Positions 6 to 43,247 of a stretch of DNA of 64,000 nt are shown one piece after another; positions within the stretch are counted from its first letter, which is position 1, and each line of letters starts with the position of its first letter. The notes beneath the pieces were generated by a model. The model had not been told where the DNA came from. It saw nothing but the letters and a program-made list of their open reading frames with translations, and did not search any database. Where the stretch lies: assembly GCA_947034885.2 (NCBI GenBank), contig OX344751.2:47087082-47151081 (forward strand), given 5' to 3'. The stretch is from Thuidium tamariscinum. Lineage: Eukaryota > Streptophyta > Bryopsida > Hypnales > Thuidiaceae. The position numbers were made by a program, and so were the translations under genes.

Positions 6-720
6 GTTGGGATTGGCAATGACATTTTAATTCTAAGAAAGAAGAACAACTCATTACGTCGAAATTAGGTGAAATTTAATTCTTAAAATTAGATAAATTT
101 GTAATTCAATTAATCAAAGAATAATAATACTAACAATTAGATAGGATTTTCATTGATCATTCGAACTATTTAGTAGATTCAAAATATTGTGACATTTTTC
201 AATTACCAATAAATTAGGAATTGAAGAGAAAATGTGCAATTAATTCGAACCTACATAACTTTCAGTGGCTTATTTTAATTAGGAGAAAATTTACCAACAA
301 TTGTGGAAAATTACTATGGATTAGATGGAGAACCGGGATGATTTCGATGGCGAGGTCGTAGGGGAATATTTACACATGATGATGTTTGACGACGGGACCA
401 TGGGGATTTACGCAGAGGAGGTAAACCGCTCACATTTGATTTTCATTCTCATTGTTTTACTGTTAAGTTTCTTTTCACCAAACACTTGGAATTAGATTTA
501 GGCAAAACTATAGAATAGAGTAGGGTCACTTGGTTGCATTTTAGAATAGAATAGATAGAATTATAACCACGAAATTAGATTAGAAACACCCAAAACGCGT
601 GACTAAAAGAGTTCATTGCTTGGAAGGCTTTCTTTTTCACCCAATTAGAAAGAAAACTCAATTAGACACAGGACCCGTGTGAAAAACTCTTAGCTCGAGG
701 GTGGAGTTAGGAGTGCTCAC
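6..720 (+). repeat. Left terminal inverted repeat
   Basis: About 715 bp matching the reverse complement of 14991-15706. The inner edge is sharp: both copies carry the block CTCGAGGGTGGAGTTAGGAG and diverge just past a GYGCTCAC. The repeat contains a short coding exon at 325-420 that reads into the element. Confidence 0.92.
325..420 (+). CDS. Mirrored first exon inside left TIR
   Basis: A 32-codon exon starts at an ATG, encodes a peptide beginning MENRDDFDGEVVGEY with a Met-rich centre and acidic end, and stops at a consensus donor (GAG^GTAAAC at 421). The same exon occurs in the right TIR, so it is part of the repeat. No plus-strand exons follow inside the left arm, so a transcript from here would have nothing recognisable to splice to. 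I infer it is the passive mirror of the right-hand exon. The reading frame and donor are seen directly; the function is unknown. Confidence 0.55.
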
Positions 721-829
721 AATCTGCAATTCGAATGTATTGATAAAAACACAAGCAATCAGGCCTAATCTGATAATACAATGTCAGATGTTTGTTTGAA
801 TCTTATATTTCTAGATTATTTTTAACTCG

Positions 830-1666
830 ATCCGACTTGAATGGATGGAAGTGATATCCTATATAAGTTATTTTGAATTTTTATATTATCAATTCATGTC
901 GTATCGACTTGAATGGGAGGGGAAGAATAGTATTGAACGCGAATGGAGTATGGGCTGGACTGGCTTGATCTGCGGGAGAGGAGATTACAGGCAGTTCATG
1001 TCGCCTCGACTTGAATCAGTTAGCAGGTTGGGTACCGGCGATTTGGATTTCATATTAAGAAATAGAGGTTCTAATGAATTCATGTCGTATTGACTTGAAT
1101 TAGTGGTGGATGATTCGAGGCTATTGGTCTAAAGCGGAGAGATTGCAGTGAAGGCTTTGGTATTTTTCATGGCGTCTTGACTGGACTTGCGAAAGGAAGT
1201 GAATTCAAGTCGTATCAACTTGAATGTTCTGAGGGAAGGGAATCTAAGTTGAATATGAAGAAGGACGGAATTCAAGTTGTTTCGACTTGAATGTTTTGAG
1301 GGGAGGGAATTTAAGTTGAATAAGAAGGGGGGAGGGAATTCAAGTCATTTTGACTTGAATAGAAAGGAGAGAGAGTATTGAACTTATGTTGAATTCTTTA
1401 AAATGGCGAGGGAATTCAAGTTGTATCGACTTGAATTGAATGAGGGGAGGGCATTGAACTTATATGGAATTCAGTGAAAATGGGGAGAGAATTCAAGTTG
1501 TATCGATTTGAATGGAACGAGGCTACTGTTTTCTTTGTTTTTTCTTGCGAGGCTGTATCAAAGCAACTTCATTTCTGAGGTACTCTTCTAGCAGATAGTG
1601 TTCATTTTGCCATCTTTGTAATTCTACGCTATGAGGGGTCGACTTGAATGGGATCGACTTGAATGG
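830..1666. repeat. Subterminal array of palindrome TCAAGTCGNNTCGACTTGA
   Basis: Eight near-complete palindromes occur at about 891-914, 993-1016, 1077-1100, 1202-1224, 1269-1292, 1337-1360, 1412-1436 and 1490-1513, with half-sites near 830 and two at 1637-1666. Spacing is roughly 65-120 bp, so helical faces are not strictly kept. Each arm reads AATTCAAGTCG. The array lies just inside the left TIR and has no match at the right end. Repeated subterminal palindromes are typical binding sites for a transposase, which is the most likely role by analogy. Confidence 0.8.
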
Positions 1667-1670
1667 GAGA

Positions 1671-2550
1671 CAACATGAATGGTATGACTTCCTGCCTTGG
1701 AGAAGTAAGAAACTTTGAAATCTTTTCCAATTCAAGTCCATAAGAACACTTTCTGAAACTAATGAATCTTTCCTCTGTATTTGGAAAACCCAACTTTTCT
1801 ATATCTTGCAACTTTGACCTTCAGTGACAATAAATTGGTTCTTCGGCAGGGAAAAAGGAATAGATATAAAGTAAGAATGCAAGAAAGAAGAAATACCTTG
1901 AACTAAACACAGAATTCGGACTACTAACTTGCAAAAACTTGCCTCAAGCAATCACTTGTACAGAGAGAATGGAATTTTTAGAATTACAAATCAATGAAAA
2001 GAAATGCACTTAAATGTTTTGAAAACCTAGACAAAAGAAAGATTCTTGACTTCAAACAATGGAGCCGGCAATCACAATGAAAGTGAAAATGATAGTAGAA
2101 TGACAATGTAAATGCCAATGAACAAAGAACAAACAAAATGCAAAAACCAATTGAAGAAATAAAAAACATACAAAACGAGCAAGTAAATAATCTGACTGCA
2201 AATAAGGTGGGAGAAGCAACATACCTCCTTTGCTTCTTAGTTTTCAAGCAGTTTCCTAATGCGACTTAGGATCCTACTGAAACCAGATCACCGTGCACCT
2301 GAGACTCTCAAACCAAAGCGGCAAAATCGGATCAACTTCCAGCCAAAATCAGACTGTGCGCTCATTTTCTGAACTCAAACCCTACGCAGCTGTTACCACC
2401 GCGCGACTCTCACAAAACAACATGAAACATGAGCTTCCACTCTCCGACAACGACTAATTTCCGTAAAGCCTGACCGTATACAAAACACAACCAACCCTCA
2501 CACAGCAACACTCATACAACCCTCACACAACAACACTCATACAAGCCTGA
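1671..2550. other. No gene recognised
   Basis: AT-rich sequence inside the TIR element. Short open frames are present on both strands but show no domain, no plausible splice-linked partner and biased low-complexity composition. I see nothing I can name here. Confidence 0.5.
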
Positions 2551-2810
2551 GAACACTCCGTGCCTAAACCCTCTCATAGCATTCACCCACAGCGAACACA
2601 CCGAAGCAAACCCAAACAAACCCTCTCACAGCACTCATCGACAACACACCAAAGCAAAACTGACACAGTCGTCACTCACGTAACACTCACACGACACCAC
2701 AGCCACTCACGAACCCCCGCACCGCACTCCAACACAGCTCCCGCACCGCACTTGAAAATCAGCTCGCGCACCGCATGCACAAATCTTGCACTTTTCCCGA
2801 AACTGTCAAA

Positions 2811-2985
2811 CCGAACTCTCGCACCGCACTCTCAGCCGCACCCGAAATTGTTGGACCGAACTCTTGCACCGCACTCTCAGCCACACCCAAAAATGTCGAA
2901 CCGAACTCTCGCACCGCACTCTCAGCCGCACCCGAAAATGTCAAACCGAACTCTCGCACCGCACTCTCAGCCGCACCTCTTACTT
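2811..2985. repeat. 45-bp C-rich tandem repeat
   Basis: About four copies of a 45-bp unit whose core reads CGCACCGCACTCTCAGCCGC, alternating with CGAAAATGTCAAAC-like linkers. The surrounding 2560-3140 is C/A-rich and open in several frames because the period is a multiple of three. I treat those open frames as a by-product of the repeat, not as genes. Confidence 0.85.
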
Positions 2986-3539
2986 TCAAAACCGACAAGC
3001 AGCTCCCGCATTCAATACCTGAACCAAACAACAGTGCAAATCTCGCCCTCACCAAACGGACTCTGCCCTAATTCTCCAGCAACTTCAAACACAAATGCAG
3101 CTGCACATGCTAACACCAAAGAAAACGCATAAAACACGAGAGAAAGTGCACGAGAAACAACACTAGAGAAAACGCACGAAACACGGAAGAGGACGCAAAA
3201 GCAAAGGAGAGAGAGTGAACGAGCTCCAAACCCTAATGTCAGGAAGCCGTTCTGCTCCCTTCCGGACCTTCATACCCGCCAATACCCGCTAATACCCTAC
3301 CCTGAACCTAATATACCCGCCAATATCCGCGACGGCCCTACTGATACCCTAACCCCACAGTCACCAATCATTCCAAGCTGATACCCATTTTGATTGTACT
3401 TGTTTGATATCCGCCTTTAATGTACCTTCCATGGTATCCGTCTAAAGTAGTACTTATAATTCTCAATTGCCATGAATATATGGTATGCTATTTTATTTTT
3501 ATTTTTATTTTCTATTACATTTTTTTTCTTTCGCTAAAG

Positions 3540-3985
3540 TTCTTCTAAAGTTTTTTTTCCCACTAACCACTATTTAGATCTAGAACTTCTTCTAAAGTTT
3601 TTTTTCCCACTAACCACTATTTAGATCTAGAACTTCTTCTAAAGTTTTTTTTCCCACTAACCACTATTTAGATCTAGAACTTCTTATAAAGTTTTTTTTC
3701 CCACTAACCACTATTTAGATCTAGAACTTCTTATAAAGTTTTTTTTCCCACTAACCACTATTTAGATCTAGAACTTCTTATAAAGTTTTTTTTCCCACTA
3801 ACCACTATTTAGATCTAGAACTTCTTCTAAAGTTTTTTTTCCCACTAACCACTATTTAGATCTAGAACTTCTTATAAAGTTTTTTTTCCCACTAACCACT
3901 ATTTAGATCTAGAACTTCTTCTAAAGTTTTTTTTCCCACTAACCACTATTTAGATCTAGAACTTCTTATAAAGTTTACTTTCCCA
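3540..3985. repeat. 47-bp tandem array, 9-10 units
   Basis: A highly regular 47-bp unit (TTTTTTTTCCCACTAACCAC then TATTTAGATCTAGAAC) is repeated nine to ten times with almost no change except TTCTTCTAAAG versus TTCTTATAAAG. The first and last units are degenerate. The high identity means the array expanded recently. There are no unique spacers, so it is a minisatellite and not a CRISPR array. Confidence 0.95.
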
Positions 3986-4210
3986 CTAACGACTGTTTAG
4001 ATCTACAAATCAGGTATAGAGTTTAGAGTTAACAGATAGAGTTTGAGATTCTTTTACATATAGAGTTATCCAAGCTCAATCGCTTTCTTATAGATGCAAA
4101 GTTCTAAAACTTATAAATGTGGCATAGAATTTCTCACTTAGCTAGAATTTTGTATAATGATGTAGTTTTGTGCAAGTTGTTGCAATAGGAAGAAAAGTGA
4201 ACTTTTAAAA

Positions 4211-4540
4211 CTAAACCCAAACGTGCACTGTCAAGTGCCTGAAAACCTTACCAACATCATATTCATTAAAATGAGAGTTTTCCAAGGAAATGGGAGTCTC
4301 TAGAGACACATAAGCAAGAAATTTTTGTTCTACAAACACGTATGAGAGAAGGCGATGACATCCAAAACATATACTTGGATGAAATAATTTAGATTTGACA
4401 TGTACAATTTGAAAAATGCTTTCATTCAATAGAGAATTTTCATCAAATACATACATAAGTGTTGGCATTTTTGCATTGCCAAATAAAATCCAAAACAAGC
4501 ATAGCCTACCGTTACACTCCTGGAAGCAAAAATATGACAC
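4211..4540 (-). CDS. Unrecognised ORF abutting a fold-back element
   Basis: A 109-codon open frame with a Phe/Leu/Val-rich, cysteine-containing product that I do not recognise. Its 5' end enters the fold-back repeat at 4531-4897, so the true upstream coding sequence, if any, has been replaced. It lies between the 47-bp array and the gene set of the TIR element on the same strand as that set. Composition looks more protein-like than its neighbours, but there is no domain or splice evidence, so this could be chance. Confidence 0.25.
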   Translation of the reverse strand: MSYFCFQECNGRLCLFWILFGNAKMPTLMYVFDENSLLNESIFQIVHVKSKLFHPSICFGCHRLLSYVFVEQKFLAYVSLETPISLENSHFNEYDVGKVFRHLTVHVWV

Positions 4541-4897
4541 CTCCAGTGCCTGTGTTAGACACTAATTGTAATTGATTTCGTCAAGGGTGACAACGGACTG
4601 AAAGAATGAAGTGGATGCTAAACTTTGCCCTAAAATGATTTGGACTCACATAGTATAGAAACTCAAGCATCCAAAATTCTTCCTAGCACTCTCAAAAATC
4701 ACACTCCAAACGTTAAGGTTTGAAGTGAGATTTATGAATGTGCTAGGGAGAACTCTGGATGCTTGTGTTTCTATACTATGCGTGTCCACATGTAGATCAA
4801 AGCCTAGCATCCACTTCATTATTTTAGTCCGATGTCAACCTCGACGAAATCAATTACGCGTGACTATCACAAGCAATGAAGATGTCATATTTTAACT
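4531..4897. mobile_element. Fold-back MITE with about 150-bp arms
   Basis: The segment is an almost complete inverted repeat: the left arm starts AAAATATGACA and continues to about 4700, and the right arm is its reverse complement ending TGTCATATTTT. Within it AATTGATTTCGTC and GACGAAATCAATT, and AATGAAGTGGATGCT and AGCATCCACTTCATT, pair up. It codes for nothing and could form a long hairpin in RNA or single-stranded DNA. A target duplication is not clear. Confidence 0.85.
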
Positions 4898-5135
4898 ACC
4901 CGGTTTATAATATTTTAACGGTATGCATTTTTAAGTTCTATCACTAGAAAAGCAGATCAATTTTCAGTGCTGAAAATCATAGTTTCAGCCTTTGCTATAT
5001 CATATCCTAAATGTCGGGAGTGTGTTAACTAAGTGAGTCGGCCTTTTCTATCTACTATTAATATAGCACTGCTACTATAAAACAGGAGTCCAAAATCTAA
5101 TAGTGCTTACAAACATTTTCCTATACATGTATTTT

Positions 5136-5761
5136 CTAATTCTGGACAGACCTACTCTTCAACTTCTCAAACGCCCTTAAAGTTTCTGGCCCTCGGCTGC
5201 ATCCCGCCTTCACACCTGCGCTTGCCTGCCGCATGTGCTCTCTTCTCTGCGCATGTAGTGACCTCCTCTCCCATGCGTCCGATGTTGCAGTTGACGATTG
5301 AGTGCACGATGACGAGTCCGCTTTCCTTTTCAGCCCTCTTGAAACAGTCACTGCATGCCGATGTAGATTCAAAAGCTGAATAGCAGCTACCTCATGAATT
5401 ATGTCACCCACATAATCAGGCATATCGGATTTCACATCTGGTGCAGACATTGGATAATTAGCGTCCCCATATAGTTTCCTTTGCGTCCCTCTCTGAGAAT
5501 TAGTGGGCGATAAGGTTGAATCCAGAACTGTCCTTGAGCGCAAAGGGGACGGGGAGCACGAAACTGGTAAGCACGGCATCTTGTCCGGAGGACTGTTGAC
5601 CACTCCATCCTCAACATGCCTGACCAAAAAGTCTATAGTGAAATTGAGCGTAGGAGCCGAGCAGAGGAAGTCCCCCGTACTAAGTCTTCCGTATTGGCCG
5701 CAGTCCACTGACGCTTGACATGGGAGGTTCCCATTCATCCCGGATGTACCTGCATTCCTTA
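5136..5761 (-). CDS. Terminal exon of the TIR-element gene, basic protein
   Basis: The open frame is preceded by a good acceptor (TTATTCACAG at about 5762) and runs to a stop at 5136, giving about 208 residues. No known domain is visible. There is a Ser/Pro-rich first half and a basic stretch with a nuclear-localisation look (SRGLKRKADSSS), then an Arg/Ala-rich tail. It follows the HAD exon on the same strand across an intron of about 225 bp that carries one GCGC palindrome. The donor at 5986 and this acceptor do not join in a clean open phase, so either the copy is damaged here or the splice site is slightly different. Confidence 0.5.
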
Positions 5762-5985
5762 TCTGTGAATAATTAAAAAAGAAAATTAGTCTTATGAATT
5801 CCATCACATCTTAAGTCAAAAAGGTTAAAGGAAACTCCATGAGATGAAAACATTAACGAATGAGATGAAAACATGAACTCAATCTAAAGCACAATTCAGT
5901 GCGAGTCGCGCTAAAATGAAACAGAAAAAAGAAGAGCATACTACATTCCCATAGAATATAGTTCCGCTTGATTCTGACCGCATAC

Positions 5986-6797
5986 CTCGAAGACCAGATC
6001 TAACTAACATGAACTAGTCCTAACATGAGCTCTTTGAGCATTTTATACTCTCGTTGGCCCCAAACCTCGCACAGCATTAGTCCTCCGATCCTCTCGTTCA
6101 AATTCTCCCTGAAGGACTTGAGTCCAGTTTCGCGGCTCTCGTGCAATCGTTGGAACCAAGGAAGTAGGACCGTCATCAGAAACGTGTCCATGTGACCATT
6201 ACACACGTTCGTCCAGGAATCCGTGATCACAACATTCTCTGGCTTATTCAAGATGTGTTTCCTCGGACTGTCGTCGACTATGATCGTATTATTAGGGGTA
6301 AAATTCCGATGAAAGCCAAAGAAAAGTGTGACCAGGTCTTTCAGGAACAAATCCTTACTCGTCCCCGGCTCCTTGTGAATCGTCAACCTCCCTTTGTGAT
6401 CCCGCCCCTTGATTGTTTTGCACGAGTTCTGCCCTAGAACGAGCAGGGGTTGTTTCATATCTCGGAAGAGGTGCACACAAATTGCATCTGCCGTAAGTTT
6501 CTTCATGGAGCTCCAAATAGAGATTCTCGCTATCTTCTCTAGCTCCATCAAGAACTGAGCGCAATTAGGACGAACATATACGGCCTTGGGTCCAACCTTT
6601 GCAGGGATTGTAGCGGAGTGTGGATCAGAGGCCTCCTGAAACTCCCTGATAGAAGTGTTGGATTTCCAGTCCTCGGTGCGACATAACACGCCATTGAGGT
6701 CTAGGACGACGTTCAACCACTTCTCGGTCACCCCAGACCTCAATGACCGATGCACGCCCTCCGAAGTTCCCTCATGCACTACTACAGGACGTGACCC
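5986..6797 (-). CDS. FCP1/NLI-type HAD phosphatase-like domain exon
   Basis: The exon opens at an acceptor TTTGTTAGCAG and encodes an FCP1-homology (HAD superfamily) fold. Motif I is VVLDLNGVLC: the first Asp is the expected nucleophile, but the second Asp of DxD is Asn, as in many plant HAD relatives. Motif II is ISIWSSM, a Lys region follows (SCKTIKGRDHKGRL), and motif IV is IIVDDSPRKH. The family dephosphorylates phosphoserine proteins such as the RNA polymerase II tail; the Asn suggests altered or lost general-acid catalysis. The phase joins cleanly to the preceding short exon (EVPEK then GSRPVVVHEG). A TAG at 6000 interrupts the frame 15 bases before a good donor (TCGAG^GTATGC). It may be a captured host domain or a genuine element component. 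Confidence 0.8.
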
Positions 6798-6937
6798 CTG
6801 CTAACAAACGGGGAATGCAAAGGTCGTTACGATCGAGAACTGTGTTTAACTTGGACGCATTGCAAAATTCAGTCAGAGCTAAAAGAAAAACATGAAAGAA
6901 GTCCACGCATGCTACAAGAAAACTAAGGATTAATTAC

Positions 6938-7092
6938 CTTCTCGGGAACTTCACTTGACGGCTGTTGATGAGGTCGAGGAGCAATTTTTCCAATATCAGG
7001 CTTTGAATTATCCTCTTCCACTTCTAAAAAGTCCGGAATATCTACTGAATCCCTAGGCTCTTCCTCCCAAGGTGCAGTCGTGGGTAATTCAT
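6938..7092 (-). CDS. Short acidic linker exon of the TIR-element gene
   Basis: It begins after an acceptor (GCAATCCACAG) near 7093 and ends at a donor GAGAAG^GTAATTAAT at 6938. The product is acidic and Pro/Glu-rich (ENELPTTAPWEEEP onward) and probably disordered. It joins in phase to the HAD exon. No function can be named; it looks like an inter-domain linker between the coiled-coil segment and the HAD domain. Confidence 0.6.
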
Positions 7093-7344
7093 TTTCTGTG
7101 GATTGCAAAATAGAAATCTTAGGACAACATTCCATATTCCATATTCACAAGATCGAAGACCGAGGACTTTTGCAAAATGAATCTCTGCGAGAAATATATT
7201 ACAATTTCAGAGATGATTCTCTTTTACACAAAAAGATCAGCCTAACAATATCTAATCCAATATCTATAACTACCTTCACATATAAAACTAGAGCTAAACT
7301 CTATCAAAATTGTTTTAGCGCGAGTCGCGCTAAATTGACATACA

Positions 7345-8421
7345 ATGAAGATGACGAGGAGGTTATTGGGCAGAACCTGCAGCTTGATCTCTGGTGGGCG
7401 AATCACCTCTCTCAAGGTTCTGCCCGGGCTCCGTATCCTGGGTTTCAGGGATCGTATCCTGGCCCATACTTTGCGCCTGTGATGTAGAAGGTGGAGCTTG
7501 AATATCCTGGACAGGAAGCTCTGGTGCTCGTATGGGCGGATCTGCTGGAGGAGTCGGAAGAGTCTGCTCTTCATTCGACGGAGTCGGAATCTGCTCCATT
7601 TGCGAAGGACTTGAGGCGTTGCTCATGTTGGAACCGGACGGCTGCCCCTTAATCGGCAAGGCGGAGGGCTGAGAGGCGAGAGGCAAAATTCCACCCAAGT
7701 CAATTCCTACGTGCTTCATTAAGAGACCGAGCATGGCGGAATTCTGCGCCGCTAGCTCAGTCTATTTCCTGCTATCTTCTCGCATCCAGTCCTGGGTCTC
7801 CTTATGCATTTCGATATTCTGGAGCCTGTCATTCGTAGCGTTTAACTTTATCTGCGCCATTTGAATCTCCGTGTTCTTTTTCTGGATCTCAGCCTCCACC
7901 TTCATGGCTTCAATCTGCTGCGATTGCGTCTTTTGCAATTGAGCCAATTGCTTGGAGAGACTAGTAATGCTCTCTCTCTTCCTCTTCTTTGGCGTCCGTC
8001 TTGTTGTCGAAGGAGTGGCCGGTGTTGTAGGAAGCAAAGGGGGCATGGAGTTGGATGAAGACCCCAGCGCATTCGTGAATATCTGGCTGGTGGGTGTATT
8101 CATTTCATCCAGCCCTTACGTTTCTTGCAGTTCCTGCTCATCCGTTCCGGCCTCCTCCTCCTCTTCTTCGTCACCCTCCTCCTCTTCCTCCTCCTCTTCG
8201 TTGTCAACCACAGGTTGAGGAGCCCTTCTGAGTTGGCTAAGTGGGGATTTCTGACTCGCCCTCGTTATTCTCCTGGAAGAGGAAGGAGATTCAGCAGGAG
8301 CCGCAGCGTAGCTATTGTCGCTGAAGTCATTGATGTCTAGCGTCATTGCGGACCTCGCAATGCTTTCCCACTCGTCACCCAACTCAGAACGACCAATCGC
8401 ATACACGTCTATATCACTCAT
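7345..8421 (-). CDS. Methylase tail plus acidic and coiled-coil exon
   Basis: The exon starts at GAATGCAG^ATGAGTG, in phase with the methylase exon before it. Its first residues (DVYAIGRSELGDEWESIARSA) are what follows motif I in N4/N6 DNA methylases, which supports the splice. Then come a Ser/Arg patch, a long Glu run, a basic patch (TPKKRKRES), a coiled coil of about 70 residues rich in Gln/Lys/Glu, and a Pro/Gln-rich tail. The single frame holds TAA at 8116, TAG at 7762 and TAA at 7363. The 3' donor is probably GTATGT near 7346. The polymer-like composition suggests a nuclear scaffold or partner-binding region. Confidence 0.6.
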
Positions 8422-8616
8422 CTGCATTCACATTTACGCAAATCAGATATTATGGGAGCTGGATAGGTGAACTTCAGCGCGGTTCGCGCTAAATGAGAAC
8501 GTACAATTGAACAAATGAAATCTAGAACAAATCATCTATACAACTAGAACTTCAAATAAGAGACTAGCCTAAACAAATCAGCGCGATTTGCGCTAAAAGG
8601 TAGCAAAGGAACTTAC

Positions 8617-9963
8617 CACCGCCGCACAAGTGAGTTTCCCGCCCGAGAAGCCGTCATAAATTGCCTTGCCCGCTGAGGCGAATTTCTTCACGAGCCAAAG
8701 GTAGAACTCCATCCTCAATTCCTGGTTATGAATCCTATATTCGAGCTCACTATAGGCGTGCAATTTCATATACCAAGGAGTTTCCGGACAATTGAACTCT
8801 GGAGGAACTTTCACCTGATTGGGACATTCTGGATTCTGCAGAAAGATGAGGAACACCGTCTTGGGTGTCTTTGCAACCGGCAGATCCAAAAGCTTATCAT
8901 ATTTTCCTGCCGAATACAAAGAGTATTGACAAGTGAATGTCGACAAGATCGGGTGAGTCTCAACGAAATTGACGACCTGTGACTCCCCCTTCTCGTCTCC
9001 GCAAATGAACAGCCAGGAGGGGACATCATCAAATGCAGGCTGCTTTGCTTTCTCCATCGCGGAAATAACTTCGAGGAAGTAAGGGCGCTCAACCGTTGAA
9101 GTTTCCATCCCCTCAATCCCAGGCAAAGATCTGAAGTCTATCACCCCAAGCATGATCATTTTGCGGGTGTTCGAAGTCCACGCATCTTTGTCCCACTTCT
9201 GGAAATGATTCGTGTTCATCTTATAAGGTCGGTAGTGCGCTAAGGCACTAGGCTTCTGAAAACCGGCCTTGTGCTGGAGGAATGCTTTGAAGAAAGCAGA
9301 CGCCTCTTCAGATAGTTCGGACACGTCTTTATTTTTGGCGCTATTATTTTTTGCTTGTCCGAAATAGGCCTCTCCTGGTCTCTGGAGGAGAATATCCATA
9401 GTCGCCCTTGAGAATAATTTCTCCCTCTTGAACTCCTTCCACTTCTCCCCAATGACCTCTTTCCTTGCATTGACAAGACCAAGAGTAGGGTCAATATTGT
9501 CAAGTTCCTTGATGACCAGGTTCTTCCTCTTCCGCCTTTCAATCCAGTCTTTGGTGGAGTAAGTGTTTTCCTTCACCCCGGTGATACTCTTGATGGTGAC
9601 TTTTGGGTAAAACTTGTTGTTGGATCCACCCGACCGGTTCAGGATATGCCTTGCAAGCTTGCCCATTTCCTCATAGCTTAGGTTCCCCAAGTGTTTGAAG
9701 AATTCGCGGTTTAGTACGCAGCATTCAGGGTTCCAATCTTCCTTCTCGTTAAGCATCAACCCTGTATCAGGGTTAACAAGCTTTCCATGCGGAGCAGCAC
9801 TGATCACCTCGCTCCATAGTTTAAAGATGTCATCAGGTGCACAAATCATGCGGAATTCGTTGATCAGTTTCAGCTTGTCTTCCACTTTCTTGGTCTTTGC
9901 AATCTTCAGGGTCTTGTTGACATCGATCATGGAGAATCTTGCTAACGTAGCCCTCTCGAATTC
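8617..9963 (-). CDS. DNA N4/N6-methylase-like exon
   Basis: A 449-codon open frame ends at donor GTG^GTAAGT. The last 40 residues carry the SAM-binding end of a beta-class DNA methylase: a helix (FYLWLVKKFASAGKA) followed by YDGFSGGKLTCAAV, matching the DPFxGSGTT-type motif I. The next exon supplies the expected continuation. A catalytic (S/D)PP(Y/W) motif is not clear; LLDLP or TPWY upstream are only degenerate candidates, so activity is doubtful. The rest of the exon is Lys-rich and unfamiliar. Joined to the ParB-like exon upstream it resembles prokaryotic ParB-methylase fusions. The likely acceptor is CTACAG^GAATTC at 9963. Its intron carries the nested CACTA element. Confidence 0.7.
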
Positions 9964-10042
9964 CTGTAGGTCATCAACAAAACGTAAGTTAGGAAGTGTA
10001 TCTGAGAACACAATTAGGAATCTCAGATGAAGCTTGAGCCAA

Positions 10043-11682
10043 CACTATAAGAAAACATCTAATTCTGGGACGTCCAAAAAAACGCGATTTTCGTGTCAAA
10101 CACGATGTCTCCTAAAATCCGTCAAAATGGACAAGCAAAAAACATGGTGGAAAAAACGGAAAATACGTTCTTTTTTTTTGGACATCCTTCAAGACAGGGT
10201 AATTTGAGGGATCCAAATAGTGCCATTTGGCATTGCAAAAAGGTCCACATCAACAACTTTTTGGCGGGCAGTGCCACCTATGATTTTTCTTCATCCATTG
10301 CCTCATCCATGTTTTTTGTGACGTGGACCCCTGAATTATGCTGACGTAGACCCCAAATTATGTTGACGTGGACCCCAAATTATGCTGACATGGACTCCAA
10401 ATTATGCTGACATGACATGCTTTGTCAGCACACTTTTGGGTCACTTGAAAACAGGGTTATCTTGTCGGACATATTTTTGGGTTTGGGTGTCGTGTAGGAC
10501 GTCTGACGTCGCGTGTCACGGTGACAACTTGTTACGAAGGGCGTCGCACCTTGTCGCGAAAGTCCATTTTTAGCAGCTCAAAAAAATGAAAATCTTACTA
10601 TAACTATGAATCTAAATATAAAATGTAATATGTAATCATGAAACTAAAACACTTAATTGAAACGGAACTTAAATATGTCAAAAATTTTAATTTCTAATGA
10701 TTTATTTTTATTTTTTTATGATGTTGACACTATTGGACGTCGCGAGGGCTCTACTAGACGTCACATGACGTCTATCTGTCGCGCTGTCACGCTGCCCGGG
10801 TAGAAAACCCTGATTGAAAATTGTAATGGTGTTTTTTAAGATGTCAAATTAAACGTCAGTTAGTACACTGTATCCACAAATCCAAGTCAGAAAATAAATA
10901 ATATTAAAATAAATAATAAAATAAAATAAATAATAAAATAAAATAAATAAATAAAATTAAAAAATTAAAAAAATTAAAAAACTTACCACTTACCTTTTTG
11001 AGAACTTTTGATGGTAAAATGAAAAGATTACTTCATTTAAAGTTAATGAAAATGAAGGAGAAAAAGCCTATACTTATATTCTTTCTCAGCCTTAGGTGAG
11101 ACAAAAGATATGGGATTTGAGAAATGGCAACTTGACAATTGAATATGTTGATGTCATTTGAGACATGTCACGTCATTTCAGACATGCATGTCATTTCAAA
11201 CATCAAGATGTTCTCTCAACGTTATTTTTGCATATCCCATATTGATTGTCTCTCCTCCCACCACTGAACTAGTATAAAGACCACTTGTTTTCATCCATAT
11301 AATGCATTCAAATCATCCATCCATTCCCTTTTTTTTTGCAAAACATGCCACGTGGCTGCCCTTTCTCTAAATTTTTCACTTGTGATCAATTTTTACTACA
11401 GACCATAAATTTTTTAATTAATTTAAAAAAAATTAGAATGAACTCTTTGCTGACGTGGCCATCTATGTTTTTTTGGATGTTTGAAAAAATCTTACCATGT
11501 TCTATGTGATGTCCAAAAAAACATCCTTGTCTCAGTGGACATATCAAAAAACATGCAATGTTTCTAGTGACATCTAATAAAATCCTATGAGCATTGACGC
11601 GTTTTTCAAAAACATGACGCGTTTTTAAAAACATGACGTGTTTTTGTTTTGACGACACAGAAAACGCGAGTTTCTTATAGTG
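10043..11682. mobile_element. CACTA-type non-autonomous element with CAA target duplication
   Basis: The left end reads CACTATAAGAAAAC and the right end GTTTCTTATAGTG, flanked by direct CAA at 10040-10042 and 11683-11685. The 3-bp duplication and the CACTA tips define the superfamily. The interior has short GACGT/GTCGC-rich repeats and an AT-rich core near 10890-10980, with no transposase, so it depends on a partner elsewhere. It sits in an intron of the TIR-element gene. Removing it and one CAA restores a short intron of about 130 bp. Confidence 0.93.
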
Positions 11683-11736
11683 CAATGAGATTTTCGAAAT
11701 TCTACAATTTAGCGCGATTCGCGCTGAAAAATTTAC

Positions 11737-13212
11737 CTGAAAGCGTTGTTTCGTCTTCCTAGTTTCGATAGGACTCTTCTTGGCAATGACAACACCAACT
11801 GCCGTTGGTGGTTTAGGATTCACCGGTCTCCCCATCGCTTCCCAGATAGTGCGGGCTCTAAGTATATTTGTGGCCCAGGAAGGTTGCACAACAACGAAAT
11901 GGTTCGTGCGATTATAGTACGCGGAGATGCATCTCAATTTCTCCGCATCTTTCGACCATACGACGAAGCAATTCCATTTGCGGAAGTGCTCTCTCTGGTC
12001 ATGGTTCACATTATTCGCGTCGTCCAACATGAACCTGCTCGCTGCAACGCTATGCTACCCGTTGATAATATAAAATTTGCCGCTCTAAATGTCTTCCCAC
12101 TTCTGGGGCTTCGTTTCTTGGTCTACGGGCATGACACAAAGCGTCTGCTTTGTGCTTTTGTCCGGCATATTGAGCAGGTATGTCACGAGATCCTAGACAA
12201 TGCTCTCTTCCTTGGAGCATACGTTGAAGGTTGCTGGGGCGTCAACCATTTGAGAGATGTCAATCTCTTTCTTGTCATCAACTTTGAAAATGTACGCGTC
12301 CTGGCAGCTTATCCAAAACTGCTGGTACACTTGGCTGACGTGCTTATAGTCAGGCTTCCTATCTGTTGCCCGAGAGTGCGGAATGCTAGCTATCGCGCCA
12401 ACTAAGTTACCATCTGGCAACTCAGATTCCTCTGAAACTTTTGCACCTGTTTTTGGCACAGATGGAGAGGCATTTGACTTTCTACCCTTCCTTCTCTCTT
12501 TTGGAGGTGCTTCATCTGGGTTCTGAGATCCTCTCTTCCCCCTGGAAGTGTCTACTTCGGCTTTCTTCGTGGGCTTCTGAGATTCTCGCTGCTTTTTAGA
12601 ACTCCCTGGCTCGACCTTGATGGTTCTCGGAGTGTTCATTTGAATTTGAAGCTCGATCTTACCCTGCAGGATGCTGAACTTATTGATGAGAAGTCGTATT
12701 TTGCTACATAACTTCTTCCAAGCCAATGGCGACCCATTTGCATTCCTCCACTCATTGTTGTCAATTTGGGCTTCCAGCGGCTTCACTTGGTCGGCGTAGG
12801 GTGTAAGGTCGAGAGTTTCTAAGAGTGGAGAAAGGTAGAAGGGGATGTCCGCGGAGTTCAAGCAAATTGCGAAGTGGTACTCATCCTTTCTCGCAACACC
12901 CGGGATGTCGGTCATGCACTTGATCCTGATCATGGGGTGTGCATCTGCCTCCACGTCCTTCAGTTTTTCTTGATAGGATAGCTGCATGTAGACTTGCCCG
13001 TTCCTGAACTTGTAGGAGAAGCAAAGCTTGTTCACGAACGGAATCATGTGCAGGCTCCAGGACTCGACTTGCTCTGGCTCTTTGAATTCCCAATATTCTC
13101 CCTCAATGAGATAATCGTCTGCAGTTCTGTCGTCCTCTTCAAATTGGATTTCACATCTCTTAAAGTACATCTCCAGGGCGTCATAAAGATTCTGAAGTTC
13201 ATTCTCCATTCT
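11737..13212 (-). CDS. ParB-like domain exon of the TIR-element gene
   Basis: One frame from an acceptor near 13213 to donor TTTCAG^GTAAAT at 11737. The first 180 residues are unfamiliar; a Lys/Arg/Ser/Pro-rich linker follows. The last 190 residues look like a ParB/sulfiredoxin-type domain: a KKEIDISQMVDAPATFNV start, the signature FYIING-stop-HSVAASR where ParB proteins have a GQHR-like motif, then VVWSKDAEKLR and AYYNRTN. ParB domains bind DNA and hydrolyse CTP or act as nucleases, and in bacteria are often fused to DNA methylases, as here. Three TAGs interrupt the frame at 12193, 12085 and 12055; each could come from CAG. It is probably dead in this copy. Earlier 5' exons must exist because this start does not join in phase to exon 1 in the right TIR. 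Confidence 0.72.
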
Positions 13213-13759
13213 ACAATGTTGAAATCAATTGACTCAGTAGTTGTTGACAATTTAGCGCGAGTCGCGCTAAATTTACAAGCAAGTTAGGGATTGGGAATTT
13301 GATTAGCGATATCGAGCATAAATAATTAGTTTCAGTTTATTCTTGAGCTGAGGGAAATTATTCTTCTGGTTTATAGGGGTTGAGCTTTAGCGCGAAACGC
13401 GCTAATGTAGTTACATCATGTATGTATCTAGGATTTCGTGAATGCTGGATTTGGTTTCTGGGTTTAAGCGCGATACGCGCTGAATTGTACATGCTATCAT
13501 TACAGTGTTGTGTTCCTGATATACTACTGACAATATATCTTATATCTATTTTTATTTGTTTTTATCTATTTTTAAATATTTTTCTTGGTTCGGATTTCTT
13601 CTGCCTTGGGGATACAAGTTTAGCGCGGCTCGCGCTAAACTGCTGAGCGTGAGCCTCGCTGATTAGCATTGTGGGCACGAGGTTTGTAGATGACTTCTAC
13701 ATAGCCGGTGTCTGTCATTTGAGCGCGAGTCGCGCTGAAATGATAGATTTGCTAAATTT

Positions 13760-14990
13760 GGGTTTACTATTGATCTGCTCTATGTTCTTGTGGGTTTGTG
13801 TTCATATAAATTTTTAGGGTTTGCACGAATTCTTAATCATATACTATACTTTTCGTTCATAAACTCTGTGAATACAAGGCTCTGGTTTCTGGGAACTCAA
13901 TGCAGCATCTCGTTATTGATATTGAAGAATTTAGGGTTCCCTACGTTGATGAAGAAAATCAAAGACTACTACAACAGACTCAAGCATTATCCACACAACA
14001 TCCTTGTTCTAGCATTGAGAAAAATCACTTTGGCAACAAATGCGCACCACCACTGTCGCAATTAAAAAGTACTCCAATTGCAATACAAGAAATTGATAAA
14101 CACTAACCTGATAAGTAAGAAGGATGTGGAAGCTCCAACTGCAGCCGAAATCCAAATCGCAGAAAGAAAACAAACCAACTGATCTGCAAACATTGGAACA
14201 CGATGCTGCGTTACTTCAGAACTTCACATACAAGAGCCCTAAACCTCCAATATTACAAGTCACACAGCCCAAAACAATACCTACAGCCTACATTACACAG
14301 CCCAAATAGGAAATTTTTTGCCTACATTGGAACTTCTAGTAAAACCACAATTGCAATGAAAAAACGAAATTCAGATCACCAACAGGAAACCCACCACGAG
14401 TAACAAAGAAACCCATCACAAACAACAAGCAGCACAGGAATGATGCAACATCTAAGCTGGTACATAAACAGCAAATGCAACAATTCAAAGCAATTGTAAA
14501 GCAAAGTAACGCAACCAATCATTCAGCTCATGCACATGCTTCCAATGCCATCCCATTCCCAGCACTCTATGCATTGTCAAGCCATCAAACATCAGGGTTT
14601 AAGGGAACTGACATTCACAAAGCAACTGAATGCACACCTATAAAGAAAACTGAAAAGTGGTAAATTGAATGAATTTAGAGCTTACCACAATCCTCGACGG
14701 AGTTCCGCCGCCTGCACAGCGCAAAAATCCTTGCCCAACCGCGCGCAAGTTGTACACAAGAAAGCCTCCGTCCTCGCAAATCGCGCTAAAATAATCAACC
14801 TCACAGAAAAAGTCTCCGCCAACCTCACCTTCTCTCACGCTGAAACTCACAGACAAAGATCGCTTGAAGATAAAGATCACCGCCTCCCAATCAATCCTTC
14901 CACAGGTTGCTCTCACAATGACTACCTCAGAGACACACAGCGCCTACAGACAAGCAAAACGCAGACTCCTTACACACACACCGCGCGCGC
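13760..14990. other. Probable 5' non-coding region of the TIR-element gene; no firm gene
   Basis: Short open frames occur on the plus strand (for example 13900-14106) but are Gln/His/Thr-rich, without domains. On the minus strand the interval must hold any missing 5' exons between exon 1 in the right TIR and the ParB exon. A 27-codon minus-strand frame at about 13718-13635, sandwiched between two palindromes, is the best candidate but lacks a clear donor. The 14690-15000 part is C-rich and resembles 2560-2800 in composition. Confidence 0.4.
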
Positions 14991-15706
14991 TGTGAGCGCT
15001 CCTAACTCCACCCTCGAGCTAAGAGTTTTTCACACGGGTCCTGTGTCTAATTGAGTTTTCTTTCTAATTGGGTGAAAAAGAAAGCCTTCCAAGCAATGAA
15101 CTCTTTTAGTCACGTGTTTTGGATGTTTCTAATCTAATTTCGTGGTTATAATTCTATCTATTCTATTCTAAGATGCAACCAAGTGACCCTACTCTATTCT
15201 ATAGTTTTGCCTAAATCTAATTCCAAGCGTTTGGTGAAAAGAAACTTAACAGTAAAACAATGAGAATGAAAATCAAATGTGAGCGGTTTACCTCCTCTGC
15301 GTAAATCTCCATGGTCCCGTCGTCAAACATCATCATGTGTAAATATTCCCCTACGACCTCGCCATCGAAATCATCCTGGTTCTCCATCTAATCCATAGTA
15401 ATTTTCCACAATTGTTGGTAAATTTTCTCCTAATTAAAATAAGCCACTGAAAGTTACGTAGGTTCGAATTAATTGCACATTTTCTCTTCAATTCCTAATT
15501 TATTGGTAATTGGAAAATGTCACAATATTTTGAATCTACTAAATAGTTCGAATGATCAATGAAAATCCTATCTAATTGTTAGTATTATTATTCTTTGATT
15601 AATTGAATTACGAATTTATCTAATTTTAAGAATTAAATTTCACCTAATTTTGACGTAATGAGTTGTTCTTCTTTCTTAGAATTAAAATGTCATTGCCAAT
15701 CCTAAC
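14991..15706 (-). repeat. Right terminal inverted repeat
   Basis: Reverse complement of 6-720. Past 15706 the similarity to the left end stops, so this is taken as the outer end. No target duplication can be tested because the window starts at the left tip. Confidence 0.92.
15292..15387 (-). CDS. First exon of the TIR-element gene inside right TIR
   Basis: ATG at 15387 opens a 32-codon exon that ends at donor GAG^GTAAAC, mirroring 325-420. The peptide starts MENQDDFDGEVVGEY; the two copies differ at two residues (Q/R and E/G). It reads toward the ParB/methylase/HAD exons on the same strand, so it is the likely translation start of that transcript. Its end phase does not fit the ParB exon directly, so at least one exon in between is unidentified. 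The product is short and acidic and has no recognised domain. Confidence 0.6.
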
Positions 15707-15733
15707 TTATTCAATTTCTTGGTAATTCCTAAC

Positions 15734-15975
15734 GAAATTGGTTGTCAATTAGTTTGGCTTTTTAGAATTAATTTAAATGAAGAATTGCAACCAAATCTTT
15801 TATAATCTAATTAATTTTAATTTCTTTTAAATCCTTAAGAAATTGGTTGTCAATTTGTCTTTTTTAATTTGTCTTATTAGGATTAATGTGAATAAAGAAT
15901 TGCAACCAAATCTTTTATAATCCAATTAATTTTAATTTCCTTAAAATTCTTGAAGAAATTGGTTGTCAATTTGTT
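15734..15975. repeat. AT-rich tandem repeat, about 110-bp unit
   Basis: The block GAAATTGGTTGTCAATT recurs at about 15734, 15840 and 15954, each followed by GAATTGCAACCAAATCTTTT and TAATTAATTTTAATTTC. Two full units and a partial third lie immediately outside the right TIR. Confidence 0.85.
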
Positions 15976-18955
15976 GTTTTCCTTTTGGCTTATTAGGCCT
16001 AATAAAACAAAACTAGCAAAATCCAAACCTTCTAAGAATCTAATAGCCAAAGAATGTAGAACATTCCAAAAGACCGAGAACAATTTCAATAGTGTTATTC
16101 CAAATAAATGGATTTTTTATTCCCAAAGGTCAACCCCCAAGATTAAAGAATCCCAATCTATAGTGTTATTCCCCCAAAAATCAATTGTTTATTCGTAATT
16201 GGCTTCACGTGTCAAATTTCATCACCTTAATCTTCCTAACTACTTCTCCTTCTCCCTCATTCTTGCTTAGTATGTTTTGCAAGTTTTTGTGGCGAGAGGT
16301 GGCTATGGAGTTTAGAATGTGAAGAAGGTTATGAAATTTTTGTGACTTCCAAATGTTGGATTTTTGTTCAAAAAGCAAGGGTGTGGCGCCAACTGCCAAC
16401 CATAAGTGTGAATTTATATCCAACTTTTGAGAGTTCCAAACTTACTTGAGTCCCTGGACTGAACCCGACTCCCCTCCAACGACCTGACTCCCTTCTCCAG
16501 CGACCTGACTCCCTTCTCCAACGACCCGACTCCCCACTCCAGCGACCCGACTCCCCTCCAGAGCCCGACTCCCTCTCCGGCGCCCGACTCCCCACTCCAG
16601 TGCCTGACTCCCCACCGGCCCGCCTGGTTGGTACCCGACCCGCCCGGGGCTGTCCGCCTGGGTGGTTGTCCGCCTGGGTGGCTGGTCTGCCTAGGTGTGC
16701 TGTCCGCCCGGGGGTTGGTCTGCTCTGGGTGTGCTGTCCGCCTGGACTGGTCCGCCCGGGGTGTTGGCCTCTTATTATGAAATTTGGAATTTGGGGATTC
16801 TCCAATTTGTAGATTTTGGGAATTCTCTCCAATTGAAAACTAATAATTTGAGGTTGCACTTTGGAATGGTTTAATAATGGAACCCGAGAATTTTGGTTCT
16901 AATTTCCTTCCAAGGCTTACGTGGTTTTTGAGAGTAGAATTCTCCCAATGTTTTAGTAAGTCTCAAGGGTACAAAGCTCTGCCGTGTCTTGATAATTGTA
17001 GTATTTTGAGAGTTTTATTCGCAAAAGGAGGTACACATGACAGTGTTTAAACCGGACTTTCACATTAAACCCTTAAAATTTCCTAGTATTTTGGAATTTT
17101 GCAACCAAAGGAGGTACACATGACAGTGTTTGAACCGAACTTTGGCGCTCAATACTCAAAATTTCAGTGAACTAGTAGCAAAGAAAGTGTTGAGGCCTTG
17201 CCTCTTGAGTGATGTGAAAAAATAAATGAAAGTTGAAGGGGCCCTAAGCCTTCAATTTTGAAGAAGAAAAAAACTAAACACAAACAAGACTTGGCCAAAA
17301 TCTTGGTCCAAGTAGTGCCCCAACCGTGTTGGTGGCACGAGTAGCAGAAGAACAAAGTGTCGGTGCGAGAAATAAGGGTACTGGCAACCTCGAGGGAGGC
17401 TCTTATATACCCGTGGCCGGGCCCCTCTCGGTAATTGCCAGTGAAAACACTTTGTTACTTCCTATCCTAAACTACCCTAATGTAATTCCAAAATATTAGT
17501 TGTTGAATGGTGGAAATTTCTAAAAACATCCCCATTTTGTCAAAGAAATCTTGGCCAAATCAAATCCAAGATCTTAACCAAAAATATTTTGGAATTAACC
17601 CTAATCTACCTAGATATTTTGCAAATTAATCCAAAGTCATTTTGAAAATTGTCTTTCTTTAGCCCAAAGATGGCTTTTTACGCAAGAAAGAGATCTTGAC
17701 CAAATCCAATCTTTGATTTTCCAAGAGATATTTCCAAAATCACTTCTAATTAACCGCAATTAACGATTAAAAAGTCAAACTAAGAGCTGACCCTCTCTAT
17801 CTTTTAGGGAACAACTCGAAACGGAAAACCGTCTGCGCCATTGTCTTCAGAAGACCCCAATTAGCCTAATGGACCCCTTACCCCTCACTCCTAGGCCATT
17901 TGCGCGCCCAAATTGGAATTACGGTAACTCCAATTAAAAGTCAAAAATCTAACTTTTAGGATTTGCGCAATTTGATGAATCTGTCAGGCCAGGGTCGTTA
18001 GGAATTTCTGTGAGAGTAAGGAATGATTCCTCATTTGCGACAATCGGACATCATTCGCTCCTGATACGCCGGTCAACCCGCCGCCAACTTGTAACTTCCA
18101 GTGAATTTCGATGTCGATGCCAGTTTTGGTAGTTGAAAATGTCGGAATGTCGTCAAACTTGACCGGGCGCTTATTAAGCATACAAAAACCTATCCTAATT
18201 TTTAGTGAGATTTTACCGCATCATACGTAATTTCTATGATTTTACGAACATTTCTATGTGCGGTTGACTTCCCATGGAGTCAACGTGGAATTTCGGAAAA
18301 ATCCGAAATAAATTGGGTAACATCTAGGGCACTCCTAGATTCTTGGTGTAAGTCCCACGCAACCTTGCACCTTTCTAATTTTAGTAATTTGGAATTACTT
18401 TGCCCAATTGGACAATTTAATTCCCGATGCCCGGGAATCTTGGACAATTGTTTGATTCTCGTTCGCTCCTGGCATGCTCCTACCCTTGGAACACCTCTCT
18501 GTAGTCTTCAATCTCCAATCCTCCATTTTTTGTCTCGTGAAATTCAAATTCTCCAAATCCATTGTAGTGGTTTTACCTTTAAATCCAATTTATTTCCAAA
18601 ATTGAACTTAAGCCCTGATAACTTCCCACGCTCGTAGTAGATTCTTTTAGCTTAGTCAGTGTCTTATGCATCCTTAAAAGGTTGACTTTGCACAGACATT
18701 CGCTAGGACTGACTAACTCTCTATTCCTTATTTCTCTCGGAATTACTAATTCTTCACATATACTCGCTTTGGAGACTTAGAATGATTCCAATTTCTAATA
18801 TTAGGAATTTTCCACCATCTAAGTTGGTTTTCCGCCATTTTGGCATAGACTGACACCAAAACTCCCTCAACATTCTTTTTATGTATTTTTCTTGAATATT
18901 TTAACTAATTTTTGCTATTTAATCGCGAAAAATGGACCCAGAGTCCTGAGTGCCA
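15976..18955. other. No gene; GC-rich minisatellites and repeat debris
   Basis: From 16467 to about 16610 there is a C-rich repeat of roughly 20 bp (CGACCTGACTCCCTTCTCCA and variants), then a GTCCGCCTGGGTGG-type repeat to about 16760. An 80-bp direct repeat containing GGAGGTACACATGACAGTGT lies at 17023-17165. A minus-strand TATA-like GGGTATATAAGAGCC is at about 17400-17414, inside an inverted repeat (AACAAAGTG/CACTTTGTT), and could be an old promoter. The rest is AT-rich with no domain-bearing frame. Confidence 0.6.
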
Positions 18956-18959
18956 TCTC

Positions 18960-19045
18960 GAGGGCTCACACGCGCACACACACAACCCGCAAACACACAC
19001 ACACACACAGCGCGCAAACACACATAGACAAAGCGCACATAGACA
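18960..19045. repeat. CA-rich microsatellite
   Basis: Runs of CACACACACACA broken by CGCG and AACCCGC. It opens artefactual frames on both strands. Confidence 0.95.
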
Positions 19046-19307
19046 AACCCAGGATTAGGAAACTCACGGCGCGCAAACAGCTCGCAAAACCCAGAACCCG
19101 GAAACGAAGGAGAGAGAAGACCTCCCAAACCTGACTGCCGAACGTCAACCCGTGGTCCGGGTCTACCAAACCTATGGCATTGGAACTGAAGCTCAAGTAC
19201 GGTAAGAAGGCTCGGGTGCCAATACTAGGCTTGAATTGTAAACTACTCAAAATATTTGTCAATGAATTCCCCTTCTAAGACAAGTTGAATTGTAACCCAA
19301 TTGGTTT

Positions 19308-19963
19308 AACCCCAAAATGACCCTGGAACTTCCTTTAGCTTCTAGAATTTGCTCTAAATTAAACTAAAAGTCAACATTTTGATATATTGTATCAATTCTT
19401 TTTGAATTGTAACCGTATAAAATCAAACTAGACATGTTAGAGATCACATTAGGAAAAAAAATACAACAATATCTCTTATGGATTGAAAGATTATAATGTT
19501 TGATCATGAGGGTGTTAAAACTGTGAAAGTAATTTGAAATATTTCAATCCTCTTTTTTTCATGTCAAACCTAAAAAGTTGGTCACCAAAAAAATATGAGG
19601 CTAGAGGGCCTAACATGCATAACCCCAATCAATTTATAACTTCTCAAAATCTACTCTACATATTTTTGAAATGAATTTTTAATGTGTTTTTTTCTCAACG
19701 ATCTAGTGTATTTGAGTCTCATTCCCCAAAGCCCTCAACAGTACAAGAAGGCAAGATTGCAATGGACACCCATGCACAAAATCTTGAATAGAAAAATCAT
19801 AAACAATCATTTTCAAAATCAGATTATTGAGGCTAAAACTAAACTTCAAAAAGAATTTTTCAAAAATATAAACTACTTAAAATAATCATTTGGTACGGTT
19901 TTGTTTAACTTTAAAAATCGGTCGAGGACACATTCTGTCCTCAAGGTCATTCAGGGGTTAATT
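19308..19963. mobile_element. TTAA-flanked TIR element, copy A
   Basis: The left end reads TTAACCCCAAAATGACCCTG and the right end is the reverse complement of TTAACCCCTGAATGACCTTG. The interior is homologous to 23817-24390 (same strand) and, inverted, to about 26040-26590. It is non-coding. The TTAA at each end could be a target duplication or part of the repeat. Confidence 0.7.
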
Positions 19964-19982
19964 CCTTGGAAATCATTTTTGA

Positions 19983-20360
19983 ATCATACTACAAAAATCA
20001 CAACTCCCTCTGTAATATCACAAATGCTTCCATTAATACTATGGGCTCATGTTTCCTAGGGTAATCATCTACCTAATTATATACTAGTAAAATTTTGATA
20101 TACTTGAATAGAATGCATCAGAATGATTCCAATAAGCCTTTGAAATAATTATTTTAAATGTTTTGTAAGAATGTTTTCAATTATGGATACACTAAGATAA
20201 TATTTCTTCAAAATGTTATATTACAAAAATACAGTAGCAGTTGGCAGTCACGTCTGTAATTTCACCTTTCACAAAGGGTGACATTATAAAAATGATGCAA
20301 TCGTTGCAATGAAGGTGATATTGAAAACGATCCGTATGGTAATATTAGAGAGGTAGCAAT
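19983..20360. mobile_element. MITE with TAATATCAC repeats, copy 1
   Basis: Begins TCATACTACAAAAATCAC, continues CCCTCTGTAATATCAC and ends with several GTGATATT/GTAATATTAGAGAGG blocks. Closely matches 33119-33495 along its whole length. It is non-coding. Confidence 0.75.
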
Positions 20361-28912: not shown

Positions 28913-29243
28913 ACTTAGGGTTTGGAGCTCCCATTTGCTTATTCTCTCTTCAACGTGTTTGAAGCTCTCACCTGCACCCTTGTGTTTTCTAGCGTTTCCT
29001 TTGTGTTTTCTGGTGGTCTTTGGTTGTTTTTCACACTTGAGCGTTGGGAGGTTGGAGATTGAAGTGCGCGAGTGTGCTTTGAGGTGTTTTTGAGTGGCGT
29101 GTGTTGGAGGCAGGCCAGATCTGAGAGCGGAAGTGAAGTGACTTGGGTTTGAGAGGAGAAGTAAGGTGAAAATTGAGTTTTTTGGCTGGGATACGAGACG
29201 TGCGGCTAGGAGAGAGTGAGGTCGCTGAATTTGGTGAGGACTG

Positions 29244-38084: not shown

Positions 38085-38404
38085 TCAGGCACGGCCTGAA
38101 AGTGAAACGTAGGCTATAAGAAGCAGCCCAAGCATTATCACCCAACATGATGCCAAGACAGCAAGAGCCATCTGCCGTGTGGGATCAAGGTCGTTGAACC
38201 CATTTACCGAAATCTCCTCCATCTGAAACAACAAACAAGGGTCACACTTCTTAAGTAATCGATTAATGGAAAAAAAAAATATGAACCAGCTGATTCGACG
38301 TACAGCCTCGTCATGAGCAATAACATGCCAAGCCATGAGAGTTTGGCGAGGACATCTTTCCCATAACAAGGCTCTACATTCACAGTACCAGACATGTTCC
38401 CAAT
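38085..38404 (-). CDS. Possible 3' exons with C-terminal membrane anchor
   Basis: Two short exons follow the NTPase-nuclease gene on the same strand. One (about 38412-38304) reads NHWEHVWYCECRALLWERC onward after an acceptor TTGATTGTGCAG. The other (38222-38085) starts after TTGTTGTTTCAG and encodes MEEISVNGFNDLDP, then a hydrophobic helix (LAVLASCWVIMLGLLLIAYV) and ends SGRA with TGA. They would belong to the upstream gene only if the TAG at 38488 is bypassed or spliced out. Otherwise they are a remnant. The single terminal helix suggests tail anchoring. Confidence 0.4.
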
Positions 38405-38487
38405 GGTTGAATTCTGCACAATCAACATGATAAAAGATAAAAAAATAAAAACAAAAGTGATTACCGGTTACATAGAATGATGGCACT

Positions 38488-43140: not shown

Positions 43141-43247
43141 GCAGTCCACATTGGGATTTCGATCTTGCCAAAAACACTCAGTTCCACACACAAGCTCAGC
43201 CCTATACACAATTTGAAGCCTAAACTGCGGTAAAGTCAAACCATATG

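Follow-up and report, generated by a model that had tools for sequence, protein, structure and literature searches.

Genes that join ParB and DNA methylase domains are known in print from giant transposons, together with the suggestion that they act in self-binding (PMC12477816). The example described there is Sola1-1_Ec32 of Ectocarpus, a 21.5-kb giant DNA transposon in which a ParB-methylase gene (1,104 amino acids) lies beside a transposase; its authors propose that the protein binds and epigenetically marks its own sequence, and they attribute the ParB and methylase domain pair in transposons to Petroll 2025 (their refs 50 and 51). Here we analyze a 64-kb stretch of the genome of the moss Thuidium tamariscinum (the window, C3:47087082-47151081), with searches extended to the whole assembly of 363 Mb in 19 contigs. 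A giant DNA transposon that usually measures about 23 kb and makes 4-bp target duplications is represented in the window by a decayed copy, with a long spliced gene and a set of palindromes around it, and we think it likely that the element recognizes these palindromes through its own protein.

The moss element resembles Sola1-1_Ec32 in being a giant transposon (about 23 kb, against 21.5 kb) and in encoding a protein with ParB-like and N4C/N6A-methylase-like regions. It differs in its longer gene (1,813 codons), its NIF/FCP1 HAD domain and its replaced catalytic motif, whereas the Ectocarpus protein is described without a HAD part; moreover, the Ectocarpus element has a transposase, and the available text on it does not mention palindromes. 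The first-pass annotation of the window reported no standard transposase, and this holds for all of the moss stretches that we read, which exclude the left part at C9:654946-659499.

The methylase-like exon of the window gene has at least 88 matches genome-wide (474 first-look candidates), including a gene-region copy on C7 that is 97% identical over this exon. Element borders were traced by search from two family-C copies. At the right terminus, which reads CTCTCATTTTAATGAATATAGTGTT or differs slightly from it, 18 fetched copies show 17 distinct flanks (two have a common flank), and the pattern of this terminus occurs at 137 places with up to three mismatches, compared with none for the reversed control. 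The left end was derived from a 64-kb-wide insertion on C7 (28565288-28629414) for which the empty site, TTAT, is present at window positions 1384-1387, and from which we infer that both of its ends belong to one insertion; of the 41 places matched by the left-end query (157 candidates, 40 of them scored), 39 start at its first base. Left and right ends could be paired by coordinate in 11 copies, 23.1-28.5 kb apart and all with a methylase-like exon match inside, although these are a part of the possible pairings, and both the right-end query and the large copies were traced from gene-bearing copies. The unit on C9 is 23,212 bp. The element ends are AACAT.../...TGTT, with short imperfect terminal inverted repeats AACATCATATTCATTAAT.../...ATTTTAATGAATATAGTGTT. 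The first-pass annotation had placed the gene within a transposable element and named multiple copies as the support to look for; for the gene this support was found, in copies with common ends, a common exon and exact target duplications. Sola1 elements make 4-bp target duplications, as seen exactly in 10 of the 11 large copies and in five of seven short derivatives (see below), and we provisionally file the moss element as Sola1-like, an assignment that leaves the transposase criterion aside. Contig C11 (17.5 Mb) contains 42 of the 88 listed exon matches and may be a repeat-rich special chromosome.

Three other proposals for the unit and its class were rejected. A left border at C9:662009, giving a unit of about 15.3 kb, proved to be the border of a 3.9-kb insertion in one copy (C3:6.2 Mb). 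CACTA/EnSpm elements have CACTA ends and 3-bp duplications, in contrast to the AACAT.../...TGTT ends and 4-bp duplications found here. Long terminal inverted repeats, as in Mutator-like or other such classes, were not found at the unit ends.

In the window, the gene and the one terminus found are arranged as follows:

11737..13209, minus strand: exon 1, with the ParB-like region, its motif NG*HSVAAS and three internal TAG codons; conserved in relatives
8617..9963, minus strand: exon 2, with the methylase-like region, DFR where DPPY is expected, and FSGGKLTCAA
7377..8421, minus strand: exon 3, with the end of the methylase-like region, an acidic stretch, a coiled-coil-like stretch and two internal stops
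6938..7095, minus strand: exon 4 of the spliced gene model
6009..6800, minus strand: exon 5, with the NIF/FCP1-like HAD domain (LDLNGVL)
5136..5762, minus strand: exon 6 of the spliced gene model, with the stop codon
4253..4277, minus strand: true 3'-side element terminus, CTCTCATTTTAATGAATATGATGTT, matching the genome pattern with two mismatches; the flank starts at 4252

The six exons have GT-AG borders and consistent phases. The first-pass call of an FCP1-type HAD was confirmed by Pfam NIF (PF03031), which matches exon 5 with E=6.7e-17 and 62.1 bits against a cut-off of 21.8. The DxD catalytic pair of NIF/FCP1 HAD phosphatases was not found in this region, which reads LDLNGVL in the window and, in the C9 relative, LDLNGIL. 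The ParB-like reading is based on YIINGQHSVAAS, which is conserved in relatives, has TAG in place of Q in the window copy, and falls on the GGH/GQH-type motif of phage ParB domains in a weak profile alignment (E=0.17). The methylase-like reading rests on FxGGK...CAA and on a stretch after the splice that resembles the end of that motif block. Beta-class N6A/N4C DNA methylases have an FxGxG S-adenosylmethionine (AdoMet) motif with its flanks and a DPPY, DPPW or SPPY catalytic motif. Here an FxGxK pattern stands at the presumed place of the AdoMet motif, a region on which the profile alignment also falls (E=0.0022), and the presumed DPPY position is occupied by DFR, which is invariant in 13 of 13 aligned copies (the window copy itself and others down to 36% and up to 97% identical to it). 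The methylase-like part is therefore probably no ordinary DNA methylase, and the earlier proposal that the element marks its own DNA by methylation is not supported.

A 21-bp palindrome, TTTAGCGCGANTCGCGCTAAA, occurs in 10 copies with up to three mismatches between 5895 and 13739, and nowhere else in the 64 kb; none was present in 100 shuffled sequences. Five copies lie in introns, five upstream of the ATG and none in exons, and although non-coding sequence makes up only 22% of the stretch (leaving out a nested CACTA-type insert) it holds all ten. The next-best scores belong to two decayed palindromes that are also inside the element stretch, and the rest of the window scores far lower. The ten sites are:

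13251..13739, unstranded: upstream cluster of five palindromes, starting at 13251, 13386, 13464, 13619 and 13719
11708..11728, unstranded: intron 1 palindrome
8577..8597, unstranded: intron 2 palindrome
8473..8493, unstranded: second palindrome of intron 2
7314..7334, unstranded: intron 3 palindrome, perfect
5895..5915, unstranded: intron 5 palindrome

A second palindrome array of another version (TTCAAGTCGTATCGACTTGAA and variants) lies at 821-1512, outside the terminus at 4253, with nine sites at up to two arm mismatches; it is possibly the remains of an element of another subfamily.

The palindromes are a feature of the family, and differ among its subfamilies. The C7 copy also contains ten. 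A genome-wide search with up to two mismatches found 66 places, compared with none for the reversed control, and among the 50 places listed 14 are of the GCGC type of the window, all at the window locus or in the C7 copy, and the remaining 36 belong to another type, B. We designate the window palindrome TTTAGCGCGANTCGCGCTAAA as version A. Version B, TTTAGCTCGANTCGAGCTAAA with half-sites TTTAGCTCGA, is represented by at least one site next to the methylase-like exon at 23 of the 28 loci L012-L039; version C, TTTAGGTCGANTCGACCTAAA with half-sites TTTAGGTCGA, in all seven loci L044-L049 and L053; version D, TTCAACTCGANTCGAGTTGAA with half-sites TTCAACTCGA, in both L050 and L051; and version E, TTCAAGT...ACTTGAA, at a single locus, L052. 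L053 is the same locus as L039, and has version C together with one version B site. Between versions both half-sites switch together.

Some of the right-terminus matches form head-to-head pairs a few hundred bases apart. Seven such short derivatives were fetched, four of them at listed palindrome places and three elsewhere (C6:9.2 Mb, C2:19.2 Mb and C11:15.3 Mb), and all seven have the terminus at both ends and contain one to five B-type palindromes (up to four mismatches), whereas 940,000 shuffled bases contain none. They are 266-548 bp long, with terminal inverted repeats of 29-30 bp.

The ends, target duplications and short derivatives together show a DNA transposon that is mobilized in trans; the retention of sites in the short derivatives argues that they are needed in cis, and the switching of sites with subfamily that there is a matched binder. 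As an explanation of the whole we therefore favor, with reasonable but not high confidence, a giant DNA transposon, present here in decayed form, whose own protein recognizes the palindromes. One long protein would combine ParB-like, methylase-fold-like and FCP1/NIF HAD-like regions and would bind the palindromes, most likely through its ParB-like part, which is the best candidate for the binder, with a transposase in the unread left part as the main rival candidate. Binding would be required in cis either for movement or for keeping the element DNA in a marked state, and short derivatives would therefore retain sites and subfamilies have versions of their own. A separate transposase is likely to be encoded in the unread left part, as in Ectocarpus Sola1. 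That the element binds its own DNA, as the first-pass annotation suggested, thus gains support from the palindromes, their subfamily versions and the short derivatives, with the binding itself a prediction from sequence. Short cognate sites that occur in clusters and are bound by a protein of the element itself are known from parS/ParB and from Spm/En TnpA; the palindromes similarly form clusters of short sites, for which the binder is a predicted one, but differ in that those of the large elements are mostly around the gene.

A more specific version of this explanation, which we hold only tentatively, is a self-recognition code of the parS/ParB kind. The ParB-like protein of each subfamily would load onto its own palindrome only, on large elements and short derivatives alike, the fused methylase-fold and HAD parts would act on the loaded complex, and changes in the code would separate subfamilies and block cross-mobilization. 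On this reading the long protein could conceivably double as the mobility protein.

A number of observations weigh against recognition of the palindromes by the element's own protein. The exon joins fit the first-pass reading of a ParB-like region spliced to a methylase-like one, but neither region could be matched convincingly in Pfam, NCBIfam, PHROGs or PDB sequences. Phage ParB-methylases (L058, L059, L061 and L062) likewise have a ParB region followed by a beta-class methylase, and alignments to them fall on the expected motifs, but with E=0.17 and a probability of 0.4% for the ParB-like region and E=0.0022 and 13% for the methylase-like region (hhalign). Pfam finds a methylase (N6_N4_Mtase) in five of five phage controls and ParB_N in four of five, and neither in the window protein. 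Structure models of two exons, built without relatives, were unusable (predicted local distance difference test, pLDDT, 32.8 and 32.3), one PDB sequence search gave only matches with E>0.03 (Lon proteases and two arginine methyltransferases), and neither viral contig scans nor a phage tblastn search with the methylase-like exon gave anything useful. Given the weak profile scores and the invariant DFR, we therefore use the labels 'ParB-like' and 'methylase-like' and doubt methylation. The window gene copy contains five internal stops (four TAG and one TAA). We considered an altered code in which TAG is read as Q; however, a decayed Helitron frame in the same window (59084-63082, carrying the domains Helitron_like_N and PIF1) is likewise interrupted by five stops, including TGA, TAA and TAG, and ordinary decay is therefore the simpler explanation.

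Further points on the same side concern the sites and the copies. Four of the 28 loci (L031, L035, L036 and L037) have no clear palindrome set, L053 and L045 contain single mixed or other-type sites, and the palindrome versions represent a handful of events by descent rather than dozens. Sites in the large elements are mainly around the gene and away from the ends. A mixed C/B site at C9:659546 (L054:47) lies within the element, at a distance of over 10 kb from the methylase-like exon; it adjoins the unread left part, C9:654946-659499, where another gene could be the partner of the sites. One of the 11 paired large copies and two of the seven short derivatives are without an exact 4-bp duplication, and large copies without the gene could have been missed by a search that began from gene-bearing ones. 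The second end of the window copy was not found within the window, and the C7 copy and the window are also alike beyond the terminus, at 721-4252, such that the two may derive from a segmental duplication.

The strongest alternative is that the palindromes are sites of a separate transposase encoded in the unread part, with the long gene an accessory passenger. Short derivatives need sites for a mobility protein, and they contain the palindromes; Ectocarpus Sola1-1 has a transposase beside its ParB-methylase gene (PMC12477816); and the site at C9:659546 would lie next to such a gene. However, most sites found in the large elements occupy introns of the long gene or its upstream part, and in the C9 copy the stretches L054 2510-10000 and L055 up to position 2323 yielded none. 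We regard this alternative as possible but the less probable of the two.

It is improbable that the palindromes have no dedicated protein and serve a structural role, whether as hairpins, as signals in introns or as DNA prone to form cruciforms. All of them have the capacity to self-pair, and half of the ten in the window are intronic, but they are also present in the upstream cluster and in short derivatives, and members of one subfamily have the sequence itself in common, beyond the symmetry, whereas other subfamilies have a different one.

The first-pass annotation had described a 15.7-kb element bounded by long terminal inverted repeats. These repeats exist and bracket the gene: 6-721 and 14991-15706 form an inverted pair of 716 bp with 98.3% identity, and all 12 mismatches are transitions. 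The best 40 of 1,103 candidates for this repeat genome-wide were scored, both window arms included, and just three of these 40 places have an exon match no more than 20 kb away (listed matches compared by eye), namely both arms in the window and C5:27.66 Mb, a dissociation that the first-pass annotation itself would have taken as accidental association. The repeat sequence extends past the supposed outer end in seven of eight fetched copies, the exception being the left window arm, and the supposed inner end (TGTGAGCG / CGCTCACA) has differing flanks in six fetched copies and a common flank in the other two, L002 and L003. Except for the CACTA insert and one other stretch, the C7 copy follows window 1384-14990 in order and resumes at 18971; since 14991-18970 is absent from the C7 copy, it is an insertion, and the right repeat lies within it. 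The arms are thus an opposed pair of copies of a dispersed repeat unrelated to the element, and with the family terminus also lying inside the supposed unit, at 4253, the 15.7-kb element can safely be set aside. The insertions and neighboring stretches are:

6..721, unstranded: second, truncated and opposed copy of the nested dispersed repeat; the left supposed terminal repeat, no part of the element
14991..18970, unstranded: nested dispersed repeat of 3,980 bp with TG...CA ends and CGCGC duplicated, missing in the C7 copy; one end is the right supposed terminal repeat
18971..20354, unstranded: stretch colinear with the C7 copy past the nested insertion, probably element interior
10043..11682, unstranded: nested CACTA-type element in intron 1, with CACTATAAGAAA ends and CAA on both sides, fitting CACTA

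Among other features of the window, an imperfect inverted repeat of about 400 bp and foldback type (4512-4910) lies just past the 3' end of the gene and inside the terminus, and tandem repeats of 45 and 47 bp are present to the left of the element (2796-2975 and 3443-4100). Two long frames that are alike by eye (29238-30770 and 51770-53179) have no convincing Pfam match and are perhaps a common repeat protein. Reading frames at 38085-44209 contain a P-loop-like motif and resemble Crinkler-type proteins; Pfam gave nothing convincing for the two examined. Pfam searches of further window frames gave nothing convincing, and tRNA and Rfam scans nothing useful.

The palindromes were not met in the literature searched, parts of which were available to us and which included no search for palindromes alone. 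To that extent, what is new is the version of the protein that bears a HAD part, the sites with their versions specific to subfamilies, and the short derivatives that carry sites. The algal ParB-methylase proposals name no site in the available text (PMC12477816), whereas in the moss candidate sites can be read directly. With several palindrome versions, matching protein subfamilies and derivatives that keep the sites, specificity and its evolution become testable in vitro, and such a system would offer a way for competing families of one giant transposon to stay apart in one genome.

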